Shown piece by piece: positions 7,237 to 50,461 of a stretch of 64,000 nt of DNA (position 1 is the stretch's first letter; each line of letters begins with the position of its first letter). This stretch comes from Legionella micdadei. Its GTDB lineage: Bacteria > Pseudomonadota > Gammaproteobacteria > Legionellales > Legionellaceae. The stretch is from assembly GCF_000953635.1 (NCBI RefSeq), contig NZ_LN614830.1, positions 1,665,001 through 1,729,000 on the forward strand. The letters run 5' to 3'. The notes below the pieces were generated by a model. The model was not told the origin of the DNA, did no database searches, and saw only the letters and a program-made list of their open reading frames with translations. The position numbers and the translations under genes are program-made.

Positions 7237-9546
7237 TTGAGTATGATCCGCTTCCTAAAATTTTTTGGCTTTACCTTTATTTTACTGGGTATCATTACTT
7301 GGGGGATATTATTTTTTGCTCCGAAGCCTTCTTTATTCGATGATTATAGGTTTTCAACAGCAGTATATGACGAGCAGCAACACTTATTGCGCTTAACCCT
7401 TAGCCAAGATGAAAAATACCGTCTTTTTACACCATTATTTCAAATTTCTCCTGAACTCAAAGAAGCAACTCTATTGCAAGAAGATCAATATTTTTATTGG
7501 CATTATGGAGTAAATCCATTCGCGATGCTCAAAGCATGCTGGCAGACTTATGTGGTTAAATCCCGGCGGATTGGGGCATCAACAATTACCATGCAATTGG
7601 CCCGTATCCGGTTTGGAATTAATTCCAAACAATTATCAGGTAAATTGTTGCAAGTTTTCCGTGCATTACAGCTCGAAATGCATTACAGCAAAGATAAAAT
7701 TTTGGAAGCTTATTTAAATCTTGCTCCTTATGGAAACAATATAGAAGGGGTGGGGGCAGCTAGTTTAATTTATTTTGGTAAACCGGTGAATAAAATAAGC
7801 TTACCCGAAGCCCTTACTTTAAGTATTATCCCTCAAAATCCTGCACAGCGAATCCCTTCTAATACAAAGCTAAAAGAAATTCGTAATAAGCTTTTTACTC
7901 GATGGTTAGTCCAGCATCCTGAAGACAAGAACAAAGCGTCCGTTATTAACTTGCCTTTAGAAATGCTGACCCTTCGTTCACTTCCTTTCATTGCTCCACA
8001 TTTTGTGAATGCAGTATTACGAGACACCACGAAACAACAGCAAATTACAACTACTTTGGATTCCCGTTTGCAAGCTATTCTAAAGCGTGTGACCACTCAT
8101 TATTTAGCGCGTAAAAAATCAATCGGCGTTTACAATGCTGCTGTGTTATTAGTCGATACACGTGATATGTCGGTTAAAGGGGCAGTGGGATCCGCCGATT
8201 TCTTTAATCAACAAATCGGTGGGCAAATCAATGGGACAGATATAAAAAGGTCGCCAGGCTCCACCTTAAAGCCGTTTATTTATGGCTTGGCGATTGATCA
8301 GGGACTGATACATCCCAATACGGTCTTAAAAGATGTGCCTCATAGTTTTGGTAGTTATAATCCTGAAAATTTTGATTATGATTTTATGGGACCTATTAAA
8401 GCAAAAGATGCTTTAGTTCTAAGCCGAAACATCCCTGCGATTTATTTAGAGAGCCAACTTACTAAACCCAATCTTTATCAATTACTCGAAGAAGCTCAAG
8501 TAAGCCAACTGAAGTCTGAATCTTTTTATGGTTTGGCACTGAGTTTAGGCGGTGTTGAATTAACCATGAAAGAGCTCGCCAGTTTATATGCCATCCTAGT
8601 TAATGATGGCGTCTGGCATCCTTTACGCACACGCAAAGATGAACCAATGAATCCAGGTAAACGGCTTCTTAGCCCCGAAGCCAGCTTTTTGGTTTTAGAT
8701 ATGCTAAAACACACCCCTCGGCCTGAGGCACATGGTTCAACAATTAACTCATCCGTTTCATGGAAAACAGGCACCTCATCCGGTTATCGGGATGCATGGT
8801 CAGTAGGGGTGTTTGGACCTTATGTGTTAACTGTTTGGCTTGGTAATTTCGATAACAAAGCCAATCCTGCTTTCGTTGGAAAGAACCTTGCTGCCCCTTT
8901 ATTTTTTGAGTTAGTCGATGCAGTCCGGCATGAACGTGGACCTTTGCCGAGTATTGAAAAACGCCCTGAAACCATGCATTTAACACATGTTGAGGTCTGT
9001 AAAGCATCGGGGATGCTTCCAACACGTTATTGTCAGGATAGGGAAATGACTTGGTTTATTCCTGGTAAATCGCCTATTAAGACCGATACTATCTTTCGTG
9101 AGGTTGCCATTAACAAAAACACAGGATTGCGGACTTGTCATTTTAACGAGACCACTCATTTTGTGGTTTATGAGTTTTGGCCATCGGATTTGCTCAAAAT
9201 TTTCAAACAAGCAGGCATTCAACGTCGTGTTCCTCCGCTTTTTGAGCCCAATTGTAGCTTAACCCAGAATACAGTTGGGTTAAGCCCGCAAATTACTTCC
9301 CCTCAAACCGATCTGAGCTATATCATGCGGGCAAATGCACCGCAAAAAATGGAAATACCATTAACCGCTGTCACTGATGCAGATGTGGCTGAAATTTATT
9401 GGTTTATCAATGAGGGTTATTTAGCAAAAACGCGTCCTGATGAGCCGTTCCTATGGAAAGCAAAGCCGGGAAAATTTATACTGCGGGTGGTGGATGACCG
9501 TGGACGGTCTGATGCGCGGGATATTAATATACAAGTGGATCGTTAA
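7237..9546 (+). CDS. pbpC: Penicillin-binding protein 1C
   Basis: 769 aa bifunctional class A peptidoglycan synthase. An N-terminal membrane anchor (residues 5-27) is followed by the GT51 transglycosylase domain with EDQYFYWHYGVNP and GASTITMQLAR, then the transpeptidase domain with S342-T-L-K345 (active-site Ser), a later SRN triad and K510-T-G, and a C-terminal BiPBP_C domain (about residues 680-769) typical of PBP1C. The start is TTG at 7237 behind GGGAGG at 7219-7224; the ATG at 7243 is the alternative. Divergent from the alpha-2-macroglobulin gene, its usual partner. All catalytic motifs are present, so it should be active. Confidence 0.95.
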   Translation: MSMIRFLKFFGFTFILLGIITWGILFFAPKPSLFDDYRFSTAVYDEQQHLLRLTLSQDEKYRLFTPLFQISPELKEATLLQEDQYFYWHYGVNPFAMLKACWQTYVVKSRRIGASTITMQLARIRFGINSKQLSGKLLQVFRALQLEMHYSKDKILEAYLNLAPYGNNIEGVGAASLIYFGKPVNKISLPEALTLSIIPQNPAQRIPSNTKLKEIRNKLFTRWLVQHPEDKNKASVINLPLEMLTLRSLPFIAPHFVNAVLRDTTKQQQITTTLDSRLQAILKRVTTHYLARKKSIGVYNAAVLLVDTRDMSVKGAVGSADFFNQQIGGQINGTDIKRSPGSTLKPFIYGLAIDQGLIHPNTVLKDVPHSFGSYNPENFDYDFMGPIKAKDALVLSRNIPAIYLESQLTKPNLYQLLEEAQVSQLKSESFYGLALSLGGVELTMKELASLYAILVNDGVWHPLRTRKDEPMNPGKRLLSPEASFLVLDMLKHTPRPEAHGSTINSSVSWKTGTSSGYRDAWSVGVFGPYVLTVWLGNFDNKANPAFVGKNLAAPLFFELVDAVRHERGPLPSIEKRPETMHLTHVEVCKASGMLPTRYCQDREMTWFIPGKSPIKTDTIFREVAINKNTGLRTCHFNETTHFVVYEFWPSDLLKIFKQAGIQRRVPPLFEPNCSLTQNTVGLSPQITSPQTDLSYIMRANAPQKMEIPLTAVTDADVAEIYWFINEGYLAKTRPDEPFLWKAKPGKFILRVVDDRGRSDARDINIQVDR

Positions 9547-11394: not shown

Positions 11395-11522
11395 AAATTA
11401 CCACTTATATGAGCAAGCGGATATAGCGATCTGTTTGCTCAAATCGCATTGTAGATATCTACCTTTCTTTTTCCCAGCTCCCTCTGTATGATGCAATAAC
11501 TCAATATCTTTTGTTATTAATC

Positions 11523-12362
11523 ATGTTTCGTCAACTCAATAAAATTGGCGGGGCGTTGGCAGCTCCTGTCTTGTATCCCGCTAAATCACTATTTATCAAT
11601 ATACTTATTGCCATTGGTACAGTTTTCGTAGCGTTAATTGCATTAGTGGGCTTACCAATCCTTTTTGCACGGGTAGCTTATGAATTAGCTCCCAAAAATA
11701 AATGGCGCGATGCCTTAATTTGGGGAATTAGTAGCTGGTTTGTATTGCTTATTGCAGTACCAGTAGTAACAGCCTTTATCCTTGCTATCCAAATTAAAGA
11801 TGCGTTGCTTGATTTACCCATTAATTTTTTGTATGGACTTGTCGATGGTTATAAAGAAGGCTTATTTTTTCATGTGTTATATCAAACGCTAACTTGTTTT
11901 ACAGTTTTCAGTAATTCGTTAAGAACGCTTGTTTTTGATACCCGCAATATAGCCATCGATGATCAAAATAAAGAAGATACGATTTCACAAACAACAAATT
12001 TCGTTTCAGAGACATTCACTCCGCTGACGAGTGAAGAAATTGAGTTAGCCGAGCGAATGGGGCTGAGTGATACCATTGATCGGTATCAGTTTGAGTGCAA
12101 AGAAGTCAATAAAGCTGAAGGTGAGCAGGGTGAGATACTGCAAAAACTGAAAGAAGAAACGGCAGTTCTTCGTGAAAAGCTTGCACCAGCCCGGCCAAGT
12201 AACCTACCCACTCCACATCAAATTGTTTTAGGGATTAAAGAAGGGATTGCCCATTCATTTTTTACCTTACCCACATCGACTCAGTCCTTTATCATTGAAG
12301 AGCGAGGCGATATAGAATATTTAGGAACAAGCTCTGAGCAAATAATGCCGTATAGTTTATAG
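11523..12362 (+). CDS. Tandem membrane paralogue 2, unknown function
   Basis: 279 aa from ATG 11523; a TTG four codons upstream is the alternative, and neither has a strong ribosome-binding site. It is a shorter version of the preceding gene with the same membrane half (DGYKEGLFFHV, FTPLTSEEIELA) and the same PTPHQIV motif near the C-terminus, but lacking about 90 residues of the middle region. The pair clearly arose by tandem duplication and then diverged, with the indel in the cytoplasmic part. It ends head-to-head with, and overlaps by 6 bases, the Mth938-domain gene on the other strand. Function unknown. Confidence 0.75.
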   Translation: MFRQLNKIGGALAAPVLYPAKSLFINILIAIGTVFVALIALVGLPILFARVAYELAPKNKWRDALIWGISSWFVLLIAVPVVTAFILAIQIKDALLDLPINFLYGLVDGYKEGLFFHVLYQTLTCFTVFSNSLRTLVFDTRNIAIDDQNKEDTISQTTNFVSETFTPLTSEEIELAERMGLSDTIDRYQFECKEVNKAEGEQGEILQKLKEETAVLREKLAPARPSNLPTPHQIVLGIKEGIAHSFFTLPTSTQSFIIEERGDIEYLGTSSEQIMPYSL

Positions 12363-12839: not shown

Positions 12840-14033
12840 ATGAGTCAATTTCCACGCATAAAACGGTTGCCCCCTTATGTGTTCAATACATTGAACCAGC
12901 TAAAGTCAGAGGCACGAGCGCGTGGAGAAGACATAATTGATTTTGGCATGGGAAATCCTGATCAACCCACACCCCCACACATTGTGGACAAATTAATCGA
13001 AACAGTTCGGCGCCCTGATACGCATCGCTATTCTATGTCGAAAGGCATTCCACGATTACGCCGGGCAATGGCAACCTGGTATCAGCGAAATTACCAAGTT
13101 ACGCTTGATAGCGAGACTCAAGTGCTAACCACAATTGGTTCAAAAGAAGGGTTAGCGCATTTAGCCTTAGCGATTAGCGGACCTGGGGACACTGTGCTGG
13201 TTCCTGATCCTGCTTATCCTATCCATACCTATGGTTTTATTATTGCCGGTGCAAATGTCAAACAGATTCCATTGATTGATGAAAAGCAATTCTTAGAGGC
13301 TGTGGAAGTAGCAATAGAACAAACTTGGCCCCGGCCTAAGGCTTTAGTAATAAGCTTTCCTGCCAATCCAAGTACTCACTGCGTCGACTACGAGTTTTTT
13401 GAGCGAGTCGTTGCTTTGGGTAAGCGGCATGGAATCTGGATTATCCATGATTTAGCATACGCAGATATCGTTTTCGATGGTTATAAAGCGCCTTCAATTT
13501 TACAAGTTCCTGGTGCTACGGATATTGCAATTGAAACTTACTCCATGTCTAAATCATACAATATGCCAGGTTGGCGAGTCGGTTTTGCCTGCGGAAACGA
13601 GGAACTCGTTGGGGCACTCACCCGTCTCAAATCATATTTGGATTATGGAACGTTTACGCCTATCCAAGTGGCTGCGATTGCTGCTTTAGAAGGGCCTGAT
13701 GATTGCGTTCTTGAGATTAGATCAATGTATGAACAGCGACGTAATGTCTTATGCGATGGTTTGCAAGACATTGGCTGGTATGTAGAACGACCCAAGGCAA
13801 CCATGTTTGTTTGGGCGCCAATTCCCGCCCATTATAGGCATATGGGATCACTTGAGTTTTCAAAATACTTGCTGAAAGAAGCTTATGTTGCAGTTTCTCC
13901 TGGCATTGGTTTTGGCCCTCAGGGCGATAATTTTGTCCGGTTTGGTTTAATCGAAAATCAACAACGAACTCGTCAAGCTTTACGTAACTTAAAGGCATTA
14001 TTTCGACGCGACGGTTACTTGCAGGCTGTGTAA
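12840..14033 (+). CDS. alaC: Alanine transaminase (AlaC type)
   Basis: 397 aa class I/II PLP aminotransferase. The start is ATG 12840 behind AGAGGT at 12827-12832; an upstream in-frame ATG at 12786 would add 18 residues that do not look like the family. The N-terminal [10 protein letters not shown], the [16 protein letters not shown] motif and the Schiff-base Lys238 in [18 protein letters not shown] fit AlaC, which makes alanine from pyruvate with glutamate as donor. It is followed after 3 bases by the RpfE-like gene, so it probably heads an alaC-rpfE-recJ operon. Confidence 0.9.
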
Positions 14034-14036
14034 GCC

Positions 14037-14840
14037 ATGGATGTCATCATCAATGACGTAAAAGACGACTTCCCTAGCGGTAGTGAGCCTCTGCAGAGCC
14101 AAGAGGATTACTACCTAAATATTCTAATCGGTTTAGGCTATAAACCAGGTAATTTACCCTTGGCACCATTGCTCGCCGCCTATCATCAGTTACCTGGGCG
14201 CTGGGTGATTGCTAGTCCTATTCACTGGGAAGCGACCCACAATGATGCCATGATTATTGCCTCAGGAAAGGAGCTTGAATTAACTGAAAATGAATCCCTT
14301 CGCTGGTTTTCTGAAGTTACGCAATTTCTCCATGCGGATCATTTCCAATGCTTTTTTCAAGACCCACAAAAATGGCTCTTCAACATAGATAATAAACCAA
14401 AAATTACAAGCTGTTCTATTCAATCTGTTTTACACCGTTCAATGATGCCTATTCTAAACAGATTGGATGAGTCCTTCTATTGGCAACGGTTAATTACAGA
14501 GTTGCAAATGTACCTTAGCTCACATCCCTTAAATAAAATGCGGGAAGGGAAGTTATCCATCAATGGATTATGGTTTTGGGGTGAGGGTGAATTGGCTGTC
14601 CCCACTAAAAGGCCAATCGCAACGGATGACGAAATACTCCTTAAACTTGGACTCCCCATTAGCCCTTTGACACCAACAATGAGCCTGAAACAGGATCATC
14701 TGCTGATTATTAATGATGTTAAACAAATTGAGTTTTGTAATTTAGAAGATAAAATGCGTAAAAATAAAATTCACTGGTACTGGAATAACTTGGCTTATTC
14801 CTCTCCAGCGACCCATTGGTGGTCTAGACTATGGAGATAA
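14037..14840 (+). CDS. RpfE-like protein upstream of recJ
   Basis: 267 aa. The INGLWFWGEGEL motif near residues 175-186 and the location directly before recJ match the RpfE/cofactor-independent phosphoglycerate mutase-like family found beside recJ in Xanthomonas and many other gammaproteobacteria. Biochemical function is not established, and the phosphatase-superfamily link is remote. It starts 3 bases after alaC and ends 7 bases before recJ, indicating an operon. Confidence is high that it is a gene and moderate for the family name. Confidence 0.75.
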   Translation: MDVIINDVKDDFPSGSEPLQSQEDYYLNILIGLGYKPGNLPLAPLLAAYHQLPGRWVIASPIHWEATHNDAMIIASGKELELTENESLRWFSEVTQFLHADHFQCFFQDPQKWLFNIDNKPKITSCSIQSVLHRSMMPILNRLDESFYWQRLITELQMYLSSHPLNKMREGKLSINGLWFWGEGELAVPTKRPIATDDEILLKLGLPISPLTPTMSLKQDHLLIINDVKQIEFCNLEDKMRKNKIHWYWNNLAYSSPATHWWSRLWR

Positions 14841-45935: not shown

Positions 45936-48275
45936 ATGAACTTAGCACAAGATAGGGTTGTCAGTGATGCGGATAAAGTTTCGAATGTCCTTAAATGGAT
46001 TTTACTTATAACAGCAATTACCTGTTTTGCCGGGCTTATTTGGGGTACTTACAAAACTTATCAGCTTGCCCCACCTCTCCCGCAACAATTTCTCACCTCT
46101 TCGGCAAAAGTCGTTATGACATCAGATGACATTATTGCAGGCAAAGCCGGTTTCCAACGTGCAGATCTAATGGATTATGGCAGTTTATATGGAATGGGAT
46201 CTTATTTTGGGGAAGACTATACGGCTAAATATCTAGTGAGATTAGGTCAATTAACTGAAGAAGAAATAGGGCAGCAACGTTTTGGTCAATCATTCATAAA
46301 TCTATCCGAAGAGGAGCAGTATATTTCTCGTAAAACGATGCAGCAAGCGTTACAACAAATCAACTTAAGTCAACAAACAACTGTTTTGCCTGATCCAGTT
46401 GCAACAGCCATTTTTAAATTGCAATCTGAGATTTCACAAAGTTTACTCAATCATAATTTAGAAACAGGTTGGACAAAAGCTTATAGTTTGGATGCACAAA
46501 GTGCCTTGCAAACAGCTGATTTTCTTATTTATTCTTCTCTGACAACAGTTGCGCACAGGCCACATCAAAACAGTTCATACACCAATAATTGGCCATACGA
46601 ACCTACGGTGGGAAATAACCCGACTTCATCCACCTTTTATTGGACTTGGGTTTCTTTCTGTTTCGTATTCTTCGGTTTCGGCGCTATCCTGTACATTTAT
46701 CATCGATACCTCGCTATCCCCGATAATGCAGCAAAAACACCTATTTTATTGGAATTTAAACCACTCACAGCAAGTCAGAGAAAAGTTGGCCAATATTTTG
46801 TGATTGTAGCCTTAGTTTTATTGGCACAGATTGGTGTTGGTGCAATTATGGCTCACTATTATACCGAGCGTACTGGATTTTATGGGATAAACATTAATGG
46901 TTTTTTGCCATTCAACTTTTTACGCGATGTGCATATTCAAACGCCTATTGTCTGGATAGCGCTATCTTGGATAAGTTCAGCTGTTTTTCTTGCACCTATC
47001 ATCAGTAAACAAGAAGCAAAAGGGCAAGGGTTTTTAGTTGATCTGCTGTTTTGGGTCACCCTCTTTATTGTTGGTGGGGCAATTGTTGGTAATTACTTGG
47101 GGATTATGGGCTATGTTAATCAATCTTGGTTTTGGATTGGTAATCAAGGGTTATCGTACATACAATTAGGCCGATTGTGGCAAATCGGATTTTGCCTTGG
47201 TTTATTCCTTTGGAGTTTCATTGTTTTCCGGGGAATGTGGCCAACCTGGGAGCAACTAAAAACTGCGACCGCTGAATTTTGGACAGGTCGCATTAGATTA
47301 GAGCATATGCTTTGGGCAAGTACGATCAACGTTGCAGTGTTATACTGCTTTGGCATGATTCCTCTGACCGGAATAGAGAAATCCTTCACGATCACCGATT
47401 TTTGGCGTTGGTGGGTGGTACATCTTTGGGTTGAACAATCGTTTGAATTTTTTGCTGCTGCTGCTACAGCTTATCTTCTGATGGGAACAGGCTTAGTTTC
47501 CCGACTTCTCGCTGAACGGACTATGTATTTTGAGACAATTCTTATTTTTCTAGGCGGTGTTATTGGTACAGGACATCACTGGTATTGGACTGGGACACCA
47601 GATATTTGGGTGCCACTCGGATCGATGTTTTCTTTCATTGAGGTATTGCCTTTAGTACTTCTTATTATTGATGCTATTGAACATCACCAACTGATTAAGC
47701 GGCAAGGTTCTTTTACTTATAATTTGGCTTGTTTATATCTTTTTGGAGCGGCTTTTTGGAATTTTGTGGGAGCTGGTGTGTTTGGTGGGGGTACACTTAA
47801 TGCGCCACTGGTAAATTATTATGAGCATGGAACATTTTTAACTTTGAATCATGCACATACAGCATTATTTGGTGCATTCGGATTACTTGGTCTTGGGTTA
47901 ATTTATTTTTGTTTACGTTATGCTGCCGGTGAGCGTCTGCCTTGGGATGAACGATTAGGTATCTGGGCATTTTGGCTCTATAACATTGGCCTTTTATTAT
48001 GGATTGTTTTAAATTTCTTCCCCGTTGGCTGGGCACAGTTAATGGATGTTTATGAGCATGGTTTAGCGCATGCGAGAAGTCTTGAATTTTATAATACAAC
48101 ATTGCTATGGCAATGGTTACGCTTGCCTGGTGATGTTATTTTTGCCTTAGGCGCATTACTAATGACTTACGATTTTTTTAAAAAGCTTAAGCCCTTTTTC
48201 CCTAGACTAGCGAAAATGAATCGCGAACAAGAAATACAATTTCGTTCATTTGATAAGAATGCGAATTTGCAGTAA
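45936..48275 (+). CDS. norB: Quinol-dependent nitric oxide reductase (qNor)
   Basis: 779 aa heme-copper oxidase superfamily protein. The fused N-terminal region (helix at about 20-40 followed by a periplasmic domain) marks the quinol-dependent single-subunit type (norB/norZ). His ligands are seen in VVHLWVEQSFEFF, GTGHHWYWTG and LNHAHTALFGAFG. It reduces NO to N2O, in a pathogen mainly to survive host NO rather than to respire. No norC, norD, norQ or regulator is adjacent. It is followed by the GG-leader peptide array. Confidence 0.96.
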   Translation: MNLAQDRVVSDADKVSNVLKWILLITAITCFAGLIWGTYKTYQLAPPLPQQFLTSSAKVVMTSDDIIAGKAGFQRADLMDYGSLYGMGSYFGEDYTAKYLVRLGQLTEEEIGQQRFGQSFINLSEEEQYISRKTMQQALQQINLSQQTTVLPDPVATAIFKLQSEISQSLLNHNLETGWTKAYSLDAQSALQTADFLIYSSLTTVAHRPHQNSSYTNNWPYEPTVGNNPTSSTFYWTWVSFCFVFFGFGAILYIYHRYLAIPDNAAKTPILLEFKPLTASQRKVGQYFVIVALVLLAQIGVGAIMAHYYTERTGFYGININGFLPFNFLRDVHIQTPIVWIALSWISSAVFLAPIISKQEAKGQGFLVDLLFWVTLFIVGGAIVGNYLGIMGYVNQSWFWIGNQGLSYIQLGRLWQIGFCLGLFLWSFIVFRGMWPTWEQLKTATAEFWTGRIRLEHMLWASTINVAVLYCFGMIPLTGIEKSFTITDFWRWWVVHLWVEQSFEFFAAAATAYLLMGTGLVSRLLAERTMYFETILIFLGGVIGTGHHWYWTGTPDIWVPLGSMFSFIEVLPLVLLIIDAIEHHQLIKRQGSFTYNLACLYLFGAAFWNFVGAGVFGGGTLNAPLVNYYEHGTFLTLNHAHTALFGAFGLLGLGLIYFCLRYAAGERLPWDERLGIWAFWLYNIGLLLWIVLNFFPVGWAQLMDVYEHGLAHARSLEFYNTTLLWQWLRLPGDVIFALGALLMTYDFFKKLKPFFPRLAKMNREQEIQFRSFDKNANLQ

Positions 48276-48376
48276 AAGGAACGGCATAAGTTGTGCCCAA
48301 CTTACTCTTTGGCAGGTTCGCTTAGATTGAACTAAACTTAATTGAAGTTGGTAATCTTTAGCTGGGGATGAGTAGT

Positions 48377-48610
48377 ATGAAACATGAAAAATTGATTCGG
48401 CATTTGGTATCTGAATTTAAACACAAACTGAATGGATTATCATCTGAACAATTAGCGAATTTCAACTTGCAAATTAAGCTTATCCCTACAGTGGGAGAGG
48501 AGGCGGGTGGCGCAATGAATGCTCGCCGAGTCAAAACTGAGCCTTCAACCCGATTAGATCCTCTAATACCAGGTAATAGATCTCTTTCTGATTTAAAGAA
48601 AGCAAGGTAA
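48377..48610 (+). CDS. GG-leader peptide 1
   Basis: 77 aa from ATG 48377; ATG 48368 is possible, but the start chosen aligns with the three sister genes. A 45-residue leader ends in VGEEAGG. The remaining 32 residues are a basic tail with LIPGNRSL and ending KKAR. The leader is the most diverged of the four. The sharp change from conserved to unrelated sequence at Gly-Gly is the pattern of double-glycine leader peptides cut by C39 peptidase/ABC exporters, or of RiPP precursors. No export or modification enzyme is in the window. Function is inferred. Confidence 0.7.
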   Translation: MKHEKLIRHLVSEFKHKLNGLSSEQLANFNLQIKLIPTVGEEAGGAMNARRVKTEPSTRLDPLIPGNRSLSDLKKAR

Positions 48611-48685
48611 TTAAATTGTTTAACCCGAAAGAATTAAACTAATTTTTAAGCAATATTATAGGTGCAACATTGGTGGAGGTGGGGT

Positions 48686-48865
48686 ATGGAACGTAAACAA
48701 CTTATTCAGACTTTGGTGACTCAGTTTGAAGAGCAAATTAGGAGTTTGCCAGAACAAAAATTAAAGGATTTAGAATCTGGTAAATTAGAAATAAGTTTAA
48801 CACAAGCTGTAGGAAAGGAAGCGGGTGGCAAAGCGGCTTCAACAAAATATAGAAAACTAATATAA
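48686..48865 (+). CDS. GG-leader peptide 2
   Basis: 59 aa from ATG 48686 with a strong GGAGGTGGGG just before it. A 48-residue leader nearly identical to copies 3 and 4 ends in VGKEAGG; the tail is only 11 residues, basic (AASTKYRKLI). The tail end KYRKL can be lined up with GNRDL of copy 3. Same proposed role as its neighbours: a precursor cut after Gly48. Confidence 0.7.
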   Translation: MERKQLIQTLVTQFEEQIRSLPEQKLKDLESGKLEISLTQAVGKEAGGKAASTKYRKLI

Positions 48866-48953
48866 GTTCAAATACTTATTGAATAGGTCGTTATATTTCA
48901 ATTGGTTCACTCTATTTTTTCTTTTCAGAAAGAAGGGGATTTAGGAGTAAGTA

Positions 48954-49157
48954 ATGAATCGTAAAAAATTAATCGAAACGTTGGTGTCTCAATTTGAAGA
49001 ACAAATTAGAAAATTACCAGAGCAAAAATTACAAGAACTTGAATCTGGCAAATTGGAGATAAGACTAACGCAGGCTATAGGAAAAGAAGCAGGTGGTTTC
49101 GTCGAGGCTATACCAGCAGGACCAGGGCCTATTGGACCAGGAAATAGAGACTTGTAA
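48954..49157 (+). CDS. GG-leader peptide 3
   Basis: 67 aa; AGGAG at 48943-48947 gives ideal spacing. The 48-residue leader (LIETLVSQFEEQIRKLPEQ as an amphipathic helix, then LESGKLEI and IGKEAGG) is followed by a 19-residue tail rich in Gly and Pro (AIPAGPGPIGPGNRDL). Some 35 bases upstream of its start are shared with copy 4, showing recent duplication of gene plus leader region. Confidence 0.72.
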   Translation: MNRKKLIETLVSQFEEQIRKLPEQKLQELESGKLEIRLTQAIGKEAGGFVEAIPAGPGPIGPGNRDL

Positions 49158-49187
49158 TGAAAAATAGTAGCAATTTAAAAAAACAGT

Positions 49188-49262
49188 GCTACTGCTTCTT
49201 ACCTGATTGATAACTGCAATTCTCTGAGTCTATCGCTTCTGGCTTGATTGTTATTTCTATGT
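49188..49262 (-). pseudogene. Decayed 3' fragment of the SDR gene
   Basis: The stretch GCTACTG..TTCTTACCTG..ATAA.TGCAA..TGGC.TGATTGT.ATTTCT aligns with the 3' end of the SDR gene at about 49678-49752 (roughly 70 percent by eye, with a 3-base gap). It no longer reads in frame. It sits between peptide copies 3 and 4, which implies that a unit containing a peptide gene and the adjoining SDR end was duplicated. Confidence 0.55.
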
Positions 49263-49348
49263 ATAAGTTCAGAAATTTATAGGGTGGTTAGATTGCAGTA
49301 CTTTTAATTATTTCATTTTCAAAAAAGATGGGATTTTAGGAGTAAGTG

Positions 49349-49567
49349 ATGAACCGTAGAAAATTAATCGAAACGTTGGTGTCTCAATTCGAAGAACAAA
49401 TTAGAAAATTACCAGAGCAAAAATTACAAGGGCTTGAATCTGGCAAATTAGAGATAAGTTTAATACAGGCTATTGGAAAGGAGGCAGGAGGGTTAACTGA
49501 TTACAATATTCCAGTTAAAAGCTGGCCTGCCCCCTCCCGAACTCCAAGTCCAAGAGGTGGGAGATAG
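49349..49567 (+). CDS. GG-leader peptide 4
   Basis: 72 aa from ATG 49349 behind AGGAG. The 48-residue leader differs from copy 3 at only four positions. The 24-residue tail is Pro/Ser/Arg-rich (SWPAPSRTPSPRGGR). Directly after the stop, another reading frame encodes DRPGNRF, the Pro-Gly-Asn-Arg motif found in the tails of copies 1 and 3, so this tail has probably been changed by a frameshift. It is convergent with the SDR gene. Confidence 0.72.
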   Translation: MNRRKLIETLVSQFEEQIRKLPEQKLQGLESGKLEISLIQAIGKEAGGLTDYNIPVKSWPAPSRTPSPRGGR

Positions 49568-49678: not shown

Positions 49679-50461
49679 CTACTGTAGTTTCTTACCTGTC
49701 CTATAAATGCAACTCGCTGAAGCTTGCGCAGTTGGCATGATTGTCATTTCTGCAATATCAACGTGAAGAGGGCGAGTTGCACAAAAGTAAACGGCATCAG
49801 CAATGTCTTCTGCGTATAAAGGGTTAAAATCTTCATAAAAAGCTTTTGCTTTCTCTTTATCATTCCAACGCACCTCACTGAACTCTGTTTCTACCGCTCC
49901 TGGAGCAATCTCAGTCACCCTAATAGGGCTGCCGAGTAAATCCATACGCATTGATTTTGTCAGCGCCCTAACCGCGTGTTTTGTAGCGCAATAGACGTTA
50001 CCATTGGGATAGCACTCTTGTCCGGCGATTGAGCCTATATTAATAATATGTCCTTCTTCACGGGCTAGCATTCCCGGCAAAATGGCGCGTGTGACATAAA
50101 GTAACCCTTTTACATTAGTATCAATCATTGTTTCCCAATTGCTAATGGAGCCTTGTTGTATCGAATCGGTTGATAAAGCGAGGCCGGCATTGTTAATTAG
50201 CACACTAATTTTTTGCCACTCTGAGGGTAAAGAACTTAAAGCGGATTCAACTTTTGCTTTATCCCTTACATCCAACACAATGGGTAAGCAGTGTATACCA
50301 TGCATTGTTTGCAAATCATTGGCAAGATGCTCTATTCGATCTTGTCGTCGTGCGCAAAGAATAAGATTTGCTCCATTTTGCGCAAAAAGCCGAGCACAAG
50401 CTTGACCAATACCACTTGAAGCGCCAGTTATTAATACAATTTTATTTTGTAAATTTACCAT
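49679..50461 (-). CDS. SDR-family oxidoreductase (YdfG type)
   Basis: 260 aa from the ATG at 50461 (AGGAG upstream); 22 further in-frame codons upstream are unlikely. G13-ASSGIG19 binds the cofactor, NNAGLAL and the catalytic Ser144, Tyr157 and Lys161 are present. The sequence, with ITEIAPGAVETEFSEVR, resembles YdfG, an NADP-dependent 3-hydroxy acid dehydrogenase acting on serine-like substrates. It follows the PNPOx-type gene by 23 bases and is probably co-transcribed. Confidence 0.88.
   Translation of the reverse strand: MVNLQNKIVLITGASSGIGQACARLFAQNGANLILCARRQDRIEHLANDLQTMHGIHCLPIVLDVRDKAKVESALSSLPSEWQKISVLINNAGLALSTDSIQQGSISNWETMIDTNVKGLLYVTRAILPGMLAREEGHIINIGSIAGQECYPNGNVYCATKHAVRALTKSMRMDLLGSPIRVTEIAPGAVETEFSEVRWNDKEKAKAFYEDFNPLYAEDIADAVYFCATRPLHVDIAEMTIMPTAQASASCIYRTGKKLQ

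Follow-up and report, generated by a model that had tools for sequence, protein, structure and literature searches.

The 64,000-nucleotide stretch of the Legionella micdadei genome analysed here (the window; C1:1665001-1729000 of a single-contig genome of 3,310,028 bases) contains, at positions 48377-49567, an array of four plus-strand genes for small proteins. Each protein has a leader of 45-48 residues with EAGG at its end and, behind it, an individual tail (Table 1). These genes probably encode precursors of unmodified, microcin-like peptides, which would be cleaved from their leaders and exported in trans by an NHLM-type system. The four-gene array is not a chance pattern, because the leader recurs in nine genes of the same genome and in 10 of 143 genomes of the order, and because the non-synonymous substitution rate (dN) of the leaders is lower than the synonymous rate (dS) in all usable pairs.

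The positions and lengths of the four open reading frames (ORFs) in the initial annotation were confirmed, as were the tails of 32, 11, 19 and 24 residues for copies 1 to 4. The leaders of copies 2-4, which had been described as almost identical, share 79-92% of their residues in pairwise comparison; the description fits copies 3 and 4 (92%) better than copy 2. Copy 1 stands further apart, with a leader 35-40% identical to the others and three residues shorter; an alternative in-frame ATG at 48368 would extend the protein to 80 residues. At the DNA level, the unit of copy 3 recurs at 48654-48831 (68% identity) and at 49317-49494 (88%), the latter value describing copies 3 and 4 across 178 nucleotides of upstream DNA and the whole leader. 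A gapped alignment of these two copies begins at 48861 and 49262 and ends 2 nucleotides past the Gly-Gly codons. The tails had been considered unrelated to each other. This holds for five of the tail pairs in the window, whose similarity is at the level of shuffled sequences, but the tails of copies 1 and 3 have a PGNR stretch in common (none of 500 shuffles gave as high an alignment score) and a 14-nucleotide repeat in their DNA, at 48567 and 49135. Tails similar by eye to that of copy 1 are present in L038:9171-9404 and L035:9425-9664.

Leaders and tails were compared over 39 precursors, out of 43 matches; in this set related tails are counted more than once. Tails as conserved as their leaders, the outcome that the initial annotation had set against its own proposal, were not seen: the mean identity is 0.57 for leaders and 0.28 for tails, compared with 0.27 for shuffled tails. 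The median dN/dS of the leaders is 0.19, and no pair among the 225 (of 741) with usable dS reaches 1; the leaders are, judging from these rates, under purifying selection. The tails range from 9 to 39 residues in length and are net positive in 37 of 39 cases, with a mean charge of +4.1, while the C-termini of 125 control ORFs have a charge of +0.30 +/- 0.37 (maximum 1.51 in 2000 draws). Pro and Ala make up 11.6% and 15.7% of tail residues, compared with 5.2% and 6.3% in the control; Ser accounts for 7.4%, Thr for 6.1%, and Cys for a single residue in 928. Basic residues are concentrated at the C-terminus, the Lys/Arg fraction being 0.41 in the last five tail positions and 0.17 elsewhere (0 of 5000 shuffles), and at least one Lys or Arg is found among the last five residues of 38 of the 39 tails. 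By these measures the tails are constrained in kind, that is in charge and composition, and not in sequence.

An exporter was found elsewhere in the same genome, where a divergent four-gene cassette at approximately 1.121-1.127 Mb, about 586 kb from the window array, adjoins a three-copy precursor locus. It comprises a cyclic nucleotide monophosphate (cNMP)-binding protein, an HlyD adaptor, an ABC transporter with a C39 peptidase domain and a second ABC transporter. The HlyD protein scores 221 bits against TIGR03794 (212 bits for the cassette of genome G024), over the curated cut-off of 156. The best, full-length match of the C39 ABC protein is TIGR03796, with 775 bits in L. micdadei and 747 in G024 (cut-off 853), and that of the second ABC protein is TIGR03797, with 627 and 605 bits, respectively (cut-off 709). 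The cassette is, on these scores, a diverged NHLM system, because the HlyD protein exceeds its cut-off and the ABC proteins match NHLM models best but remain below the cut-offs.

The initial annotation had proposed a search for C39-peptidase ABC exporters co-occurring with the leader, and these were found in 10 of 10 leader-carrying genomes. A TIGR03794 HlyD protein is present in 39 of the 143 genomes, namely in all 10 carriers and in 29 of 133 non-carriers; 38 of these score above the cut-off, including nine of the 10 carriers, the exception being G115, in which the gene is divided over two ORFs. Under independence of the genomes, which does not hold, a match in 10 of 10 would have a chance probability of about 1e-6. 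At least one precursor lies within approximately 6.5 kb of the cassette in every carrier. In a tree of the C39 transporters (n = 39) the 10 carriers fall on one side of a branch with a support of 100/100; with midpoint rooting, a choice made only to draw the tree, their sister group consists of nine other cassettes that include a cNMP-binding protein. This protein is first in the cassette in the nine carriers in which its position could be checked (in G116 it would lie beyond the stretch compared). It is 68-100% identical to the L. micdadei copy in nine carriers and at most 43% identical in the nine other cassettes.

The catalytic triad of the C39 domain (Cys31, His105 and Asp121 in L033:5409-7592) is kept in all 39 transporters compared. 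The three residues align with the solved transporter 4ry2, which the L. micdadei protein matches with 307 bits, and they are of the same types as the catalytic residues Cys32, His105 and Asp121 described for CvaB (PMC9746304). The carrier-exporter match supports the earlier proposal that the genes encode precursors of secreted peptides, with a cut after Gly-Gly and export in trans, and cleavage and export of the tails are, from the sequences, highly probable. That the proteins are instead a small cytoplasmic family with a disordered tail is very improbable, given the break in conservation at Gly-Gly, the presence of one exporter clade in 10 of 10 carriers and the intact triad.

The whole genome contains only two C39 transporters and two NHLM-type HlyD proteins, near 1.125 Mb and 2.334 Mb. 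The window contains neither a C39 transporter nor an NHLM-type HlyD, as had been noted for export genes in general. Since there are only two C39 transporters, and the second locus has a split second ABC gene, the exporter at 1.125 Mb would be the natural carrier for the window array. A TolC homologue is encoded at C1:2571978 (322 bits, cut-off 225).

Table 1. Positions of the precursor genes, the exporter cassette and associated elements. Positions without a locus name are those of the window, except values in kb, which are those of the genome.
Feature	Position	Strand	Details
Precursor copy 1, 77 aa	48377-48610	+	Leader 48377-48511; tail 48512-48607 = AMNARRVKTEPSTRLDPLIPGNRSLSDLKKAR
Precursor copy 2, 59 aa	48686-48865	+	Leader 48686-48829; tail 48830-48862 = KAASTKYRKLI
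Precursor copy 3, 67 aa	48954-49157	+	Leader 48954-49097; tail 49098-49154 = FVEAIPAGPGPIGPGNRDL
Precursor copy 4, 72 aa	49349-49567	+	Leader 49349-49492; tail 49493-49564 = LTDYNIPVKSWPAPSRTPSPRGGR
Precursor genes of the genome	Four in window; three at 1127.5-1128.7 kb; one at 2181 kb; one at 2322 kb
cNMP-binding protein, 149 aa	L033:8859-9308	-	One domain; opens cassette
HlyD adaptor	L033:7585-8862	-
C39-peptidase ABC transporter	L033:5409-7592	-	C39 domain PF03412
Second ABC transporter	L033:3232-5412	-
Repeat unit of copy 3	48922-49099	+	End of upstream region plus leader; DNA alignment
Promoter-like element CTAAACT	48332-48338	+	45 nucleotides upstream of copy 1; motif picked after looking
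Two further leader types	L112:7632-7883, 8149-8397; L115:10887-11135, 11402-11653; L110, L113, L116

In the mechanism that we propose, the leader would serve as an export address, read by one clade of NHLM-type exporter, and would dock on the C39 transporter, whose peptidase would cut after Gly-Gly. The bare, unmodified tail would then leave by way of the HlyD adaptor and a channel of the TolC type. A single exporter would serve all nine precursors and thus release a cocktail of peptides, in which the tails change much faster than the leaders; these tails may be used for a microcin-like attack on competing bacteria.

The three exporter families TIGR03794, 03796 and 03797 and the NHLP precursors were defined by Haft, Basu and Mitchell in 2010 (PMC2887384), alongside precursors interpreted as peptides that undergo post-translational modification. 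This association is what favours a different identity for the tails, that of ribosomally synthesized and post-translationally modified peptides (RiPPs), with the enzymes encoded at other genomic sites. It is an improbable one in view of the single Cys among the 928 tail residues and the lack of a modifying enzyme among 24 non-cassette flanking proteins scanned with Pfam (from carrier loci and the window, including four window neighbours) or, by eye, in the ORF lists of the loci; the scan did not extend to the remainder of the genome. The RiPP-substrate option of the initial annotation thus found no support, and a RiPP or thiazole/oxazole-modified microcin (TOMM) substrate was rejected as the leading interpretation on the same grounds of nearly absent Cys and no enzymes among the proteins scanned.

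The present system resembles the NHLM/NHLP and Nif11 systems (PMC2887384) in an HlyD adaptor of TIGR03794, in ABC proteins whose best models, with scores below the cut-offs, are TIGR03796 and 03797, and in a leader conserved up to Gly-Gly, a hypervariable core and several precursors per genome; the Gly-Gly cleavage motif, in particular, lies where conservation ends. However, the leader shows no similarity to the nitrile hydratase alpha subunit (TIGR03793) or Nif11: none of the 39 members matched NHLP, Nif11 or nitrile hydratase models of NCBIfam and Pfam at E <= 1, and comparison with an NHLP-like leader from G031 (classed by eye) gave an hhalign probability of 1.4%. The tails are rich in Pro, Ala, Lys and Arg and nearly free of Cys, whereas the NHLP core is rich in heterocyclizable residues (Cys, Ser, Thr; PMC2887384). 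The cassette also differs in that a one-domain cNMP-binding protein opens it and that no modifying enzymes accompany it among the proteins scanned. Because the leader does not belong with those of NHLP and the core is not rich in heterocyclizable residues, the precursors, as judged from sequence comparison, go with an NHLM-like exporter but are not NHLP precursors.

Class II microcins such as microcin V (PMC9746304) share with the present system a double-glycine leader, the Cys/His/Asp triad of the C39 peptidase, a membrane-fusion protein, TolC and a highly variable core. The leader described here is longer (45-48 residues) and the tails are shorter and mostly strongly cationic; the additional ABC protein and the cNMP-binding protein are further differences, as is the lack of an immunity gene seen near the precursors. 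The antibacterial use of the tails has about an even chance of being correct, and it is the best guess because a role in competition would fit exported peptides that are cationic, encoded in several copies and quick to change. A tail such as RFVREPYRPIRNR is presumably similar to the C-terminal ends of pyrrhocoricin and other insect peptides. More generally, the proline-rich antimicrobial peptides of animals (PMC11549390) are likewise short, cationic and Pro/Arg-rich, a likeness of composition only, and differ from the tails in lacking a bacterial origin and a double-glycine leader.

Several observations weigh against microcin-like peptides exported by an NHLM-type system. The tail of window copy 3 has a net charge of -1 and one tail of G105 a charge of 0, and 10 of the 39 tails contain no Pro, which also distinguishes them from the animal peptides. 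The cores of class II microcins are longer than the tails described here (9-39 residues). Both ABC proteins score lower than the NHLM equivalog cut-offs in the two cassettes scanned, and since the copies away from the cassette have no adjoining exporter, their assignment to it would rest on the shared leader. Finally, no immunity candidate was found in the gaps of the window array or among the small ORFs of ten regions read by eye, a search that covered the neighbourhoods of the precursors; a distant immunity gene may exist. A two-helix membrane protein of 65 residues, located beside precursors in four genomes, was rejected as an immunity gene because all 22 genomes of the genus have it, whether or not they carry the leader.

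An immunity gene is not required if the tails are cell-cell signals (peptide pheromones) that take the same export route and are read by kin. The short tails and the basic C-terminus would suit a receptor-read end, and the cNMP-binding protein that opens the cassette is in line with signalling. This use is unlikely, however: nine genes with differing tails and no conserved core are found in one genome, and ORF lists read by eye show no recurring gene for a receptor or response regulator beside the precursors. Only G024 has, adjoining its cassette, a response regulator with a nucleotide cyclase domain (L043:16859-18157). In G020 a second cNMP-binding protein adjoins a precursor (L037:2416-3108); it and the cyclase regulator might be tied to the cNMP-binding protein of the cassette itself. 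Two alpha/beta-hydrolase genes lie between the cassette and the precursors in four genomes of the second carrier genus (L083, L086, L088, L089), with a Pfam assignment for the L083 pair and the others taken from ORF lists; the pair is not present in G104 (L084).

Members of the Legionellaceae live in amoebae, and cationic Pro-rich peptides can affect eukaryotic cells, which would fit tails acting on the amoeba host or its compartment. Such a target is improbable: the patchy distribution of the precursors and the differences between tails of even close species suggest no single conserved target.

The nine precursor genes of L. micdadei are located in four places. The 10 carriers comprise four genomes of its own genus (22 searched), five of a second genus and one of a third, and a broader profile of 39 rows returned the identical 10. 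Among 369 evenly drawn genomes of the class, with at most 15 candidates scored per genome, only the L. micdadei genome matched, and a scan of named genomes, from which records very near that of the window were left out, returned Legionella maceachernii only. An origin from mobile elements or phages was rejected: comparison of the copy 4 protein with 72,556 plasmid and 50,697 phage records gave no match, and the nine-row leader alignment matched nothing in viral contigs.

In a literature search mostly outside subscription journals, no paper on these precursor peptides was found. The earlier statement that no such Legionella family had been described thus stands for the peptides but not for the exporter, the type of which is described (PMC6959600). 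Brown et al. (2020, PMC6959600) report LB2SS and LB3SS as putative NHLP-type bacteriocin exporters in 9 and 11 of 45 Legionella genomes; both have a C39 peptidase, and LB2SS has two ABC proteins at one locus. The cassette described here may correspond to one or the other of them, and the available portion of that report names no substrates for them. AntiSMASH bacteriocin clusters, with details not described, were listed for every Legionella species analysed in Tobias 2016, the main text of which does not mention L. micdadei or L. maceachernii; some of the NHLM loci treated here may be among those clusters. The leader type and the cargo type are new, and the kind of exporter is known.

Other NHLM loci were compared in 23 of the 29 non-carrier genomes, together with the second loci of L. 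micdadei and G104 and that of G051, from outside the order. About 20 of 29 loci scanned by pattern and by eye contain short double-glycine ORFs with quite different leaders, and such ORFs were seen at six of the nine cassettes nearest to those of the carriers in the tree. Pro/Arg-rich tails follow other leaders in, for example, G022, G154, G008, G147, G149, G151 and G155; other tails are Asn-rich, at the second L. micdadei locus, or of a DPSPGII type, in G148, G152 and G153. These other leaders with similar cargo were picked without a control and are a lead. They raise the tentative and rather doubtful idea that NHLM exporters of Legionellaceae release unmodified Pro/Arg-rich antimicrobials, with several leader types sharing one kind of cargo and tails swapped as units behind Gly-Gly. 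In L058, L060, L119, L120, L122-L126 and L128 the leaders of the double-glycine ORFs are unrelated and mostly rich in Lys, and several of these ORFs have Pro/Arg-rich tails. One further leader type is MNYLPDEDLNQIVGG-like and another MSISLLEDKDVEVICGG-like, the tail of the latter (DPSPGII...) being alike across three genomes. A link to the short K-rich leaders ending in VSGG of other NHLM loci was rejected (hhalign probability of 0.8% for one such leader). At the second L. micdadei locus the second ABC gene is split over L056:12472-13167 and 13208-14590, and an adjacent ORF, L056:8771-8980, would give MNILKDEELVDIVGG followed by an Asn/Pro-rich tail.

The window array is flanked by a gene for nitric oxide reductase (45936-48275) and, on the opposite strand, one for a short-chain dehydrogenase, and its genes are separated by 75, 88 and 191 nucleotides. 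A ribosome-binding site had been assigned to each copy; it is plain for copies 2, 3 and 4 (GGAGG, AGGAG and AGGAG) but weaker for copy 1. A direct repeat of 62 nucleotides, 74% identical, flanks copy 4, with one copy between copies 3 and 4 (49196-49257) and the other at the end of the dehydrogenase gene (49689-49750). No terminators were found, and a generic scan returned promoter-like sites at chance level. The element CTAAACT and the wider motif CTAWA(C/G)T are taken by us to resemble a sigma-S extended -10 element. The motif is found within 150 nucleotides upstream of 24 of the 39 precursors; the opposite strand has it in 3 of 39 cases, control ORFs have it in 8 of 118, and shuffled sequences give a mean of 1.7. 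However, it was counted after being spotted by eye, and paralogues inflate the figure of 24. In the window it occurs only at copy 1. In the second genus, 13 sequences upstream of precursors (L083-L086, L088, L089) contain a hairpin, GCATCTTGA...TTGATGC, just 5' of the ribosome-binding site; both sides are changed in only one of seven pairs.

The precursors would supply the likely cargo for one clade of NHLM-type exporters, and they suggest that an exporter of this type handles unmodified peptides. They form a multi-gene peptide family of up to nine members per genome, with a new leader type and with tails that seem to vary freely in all but charge and a basic C-terminus. The question of how these aquatic bacteria compete or communicate may thereby be turned into a list of exact peptide sequences.
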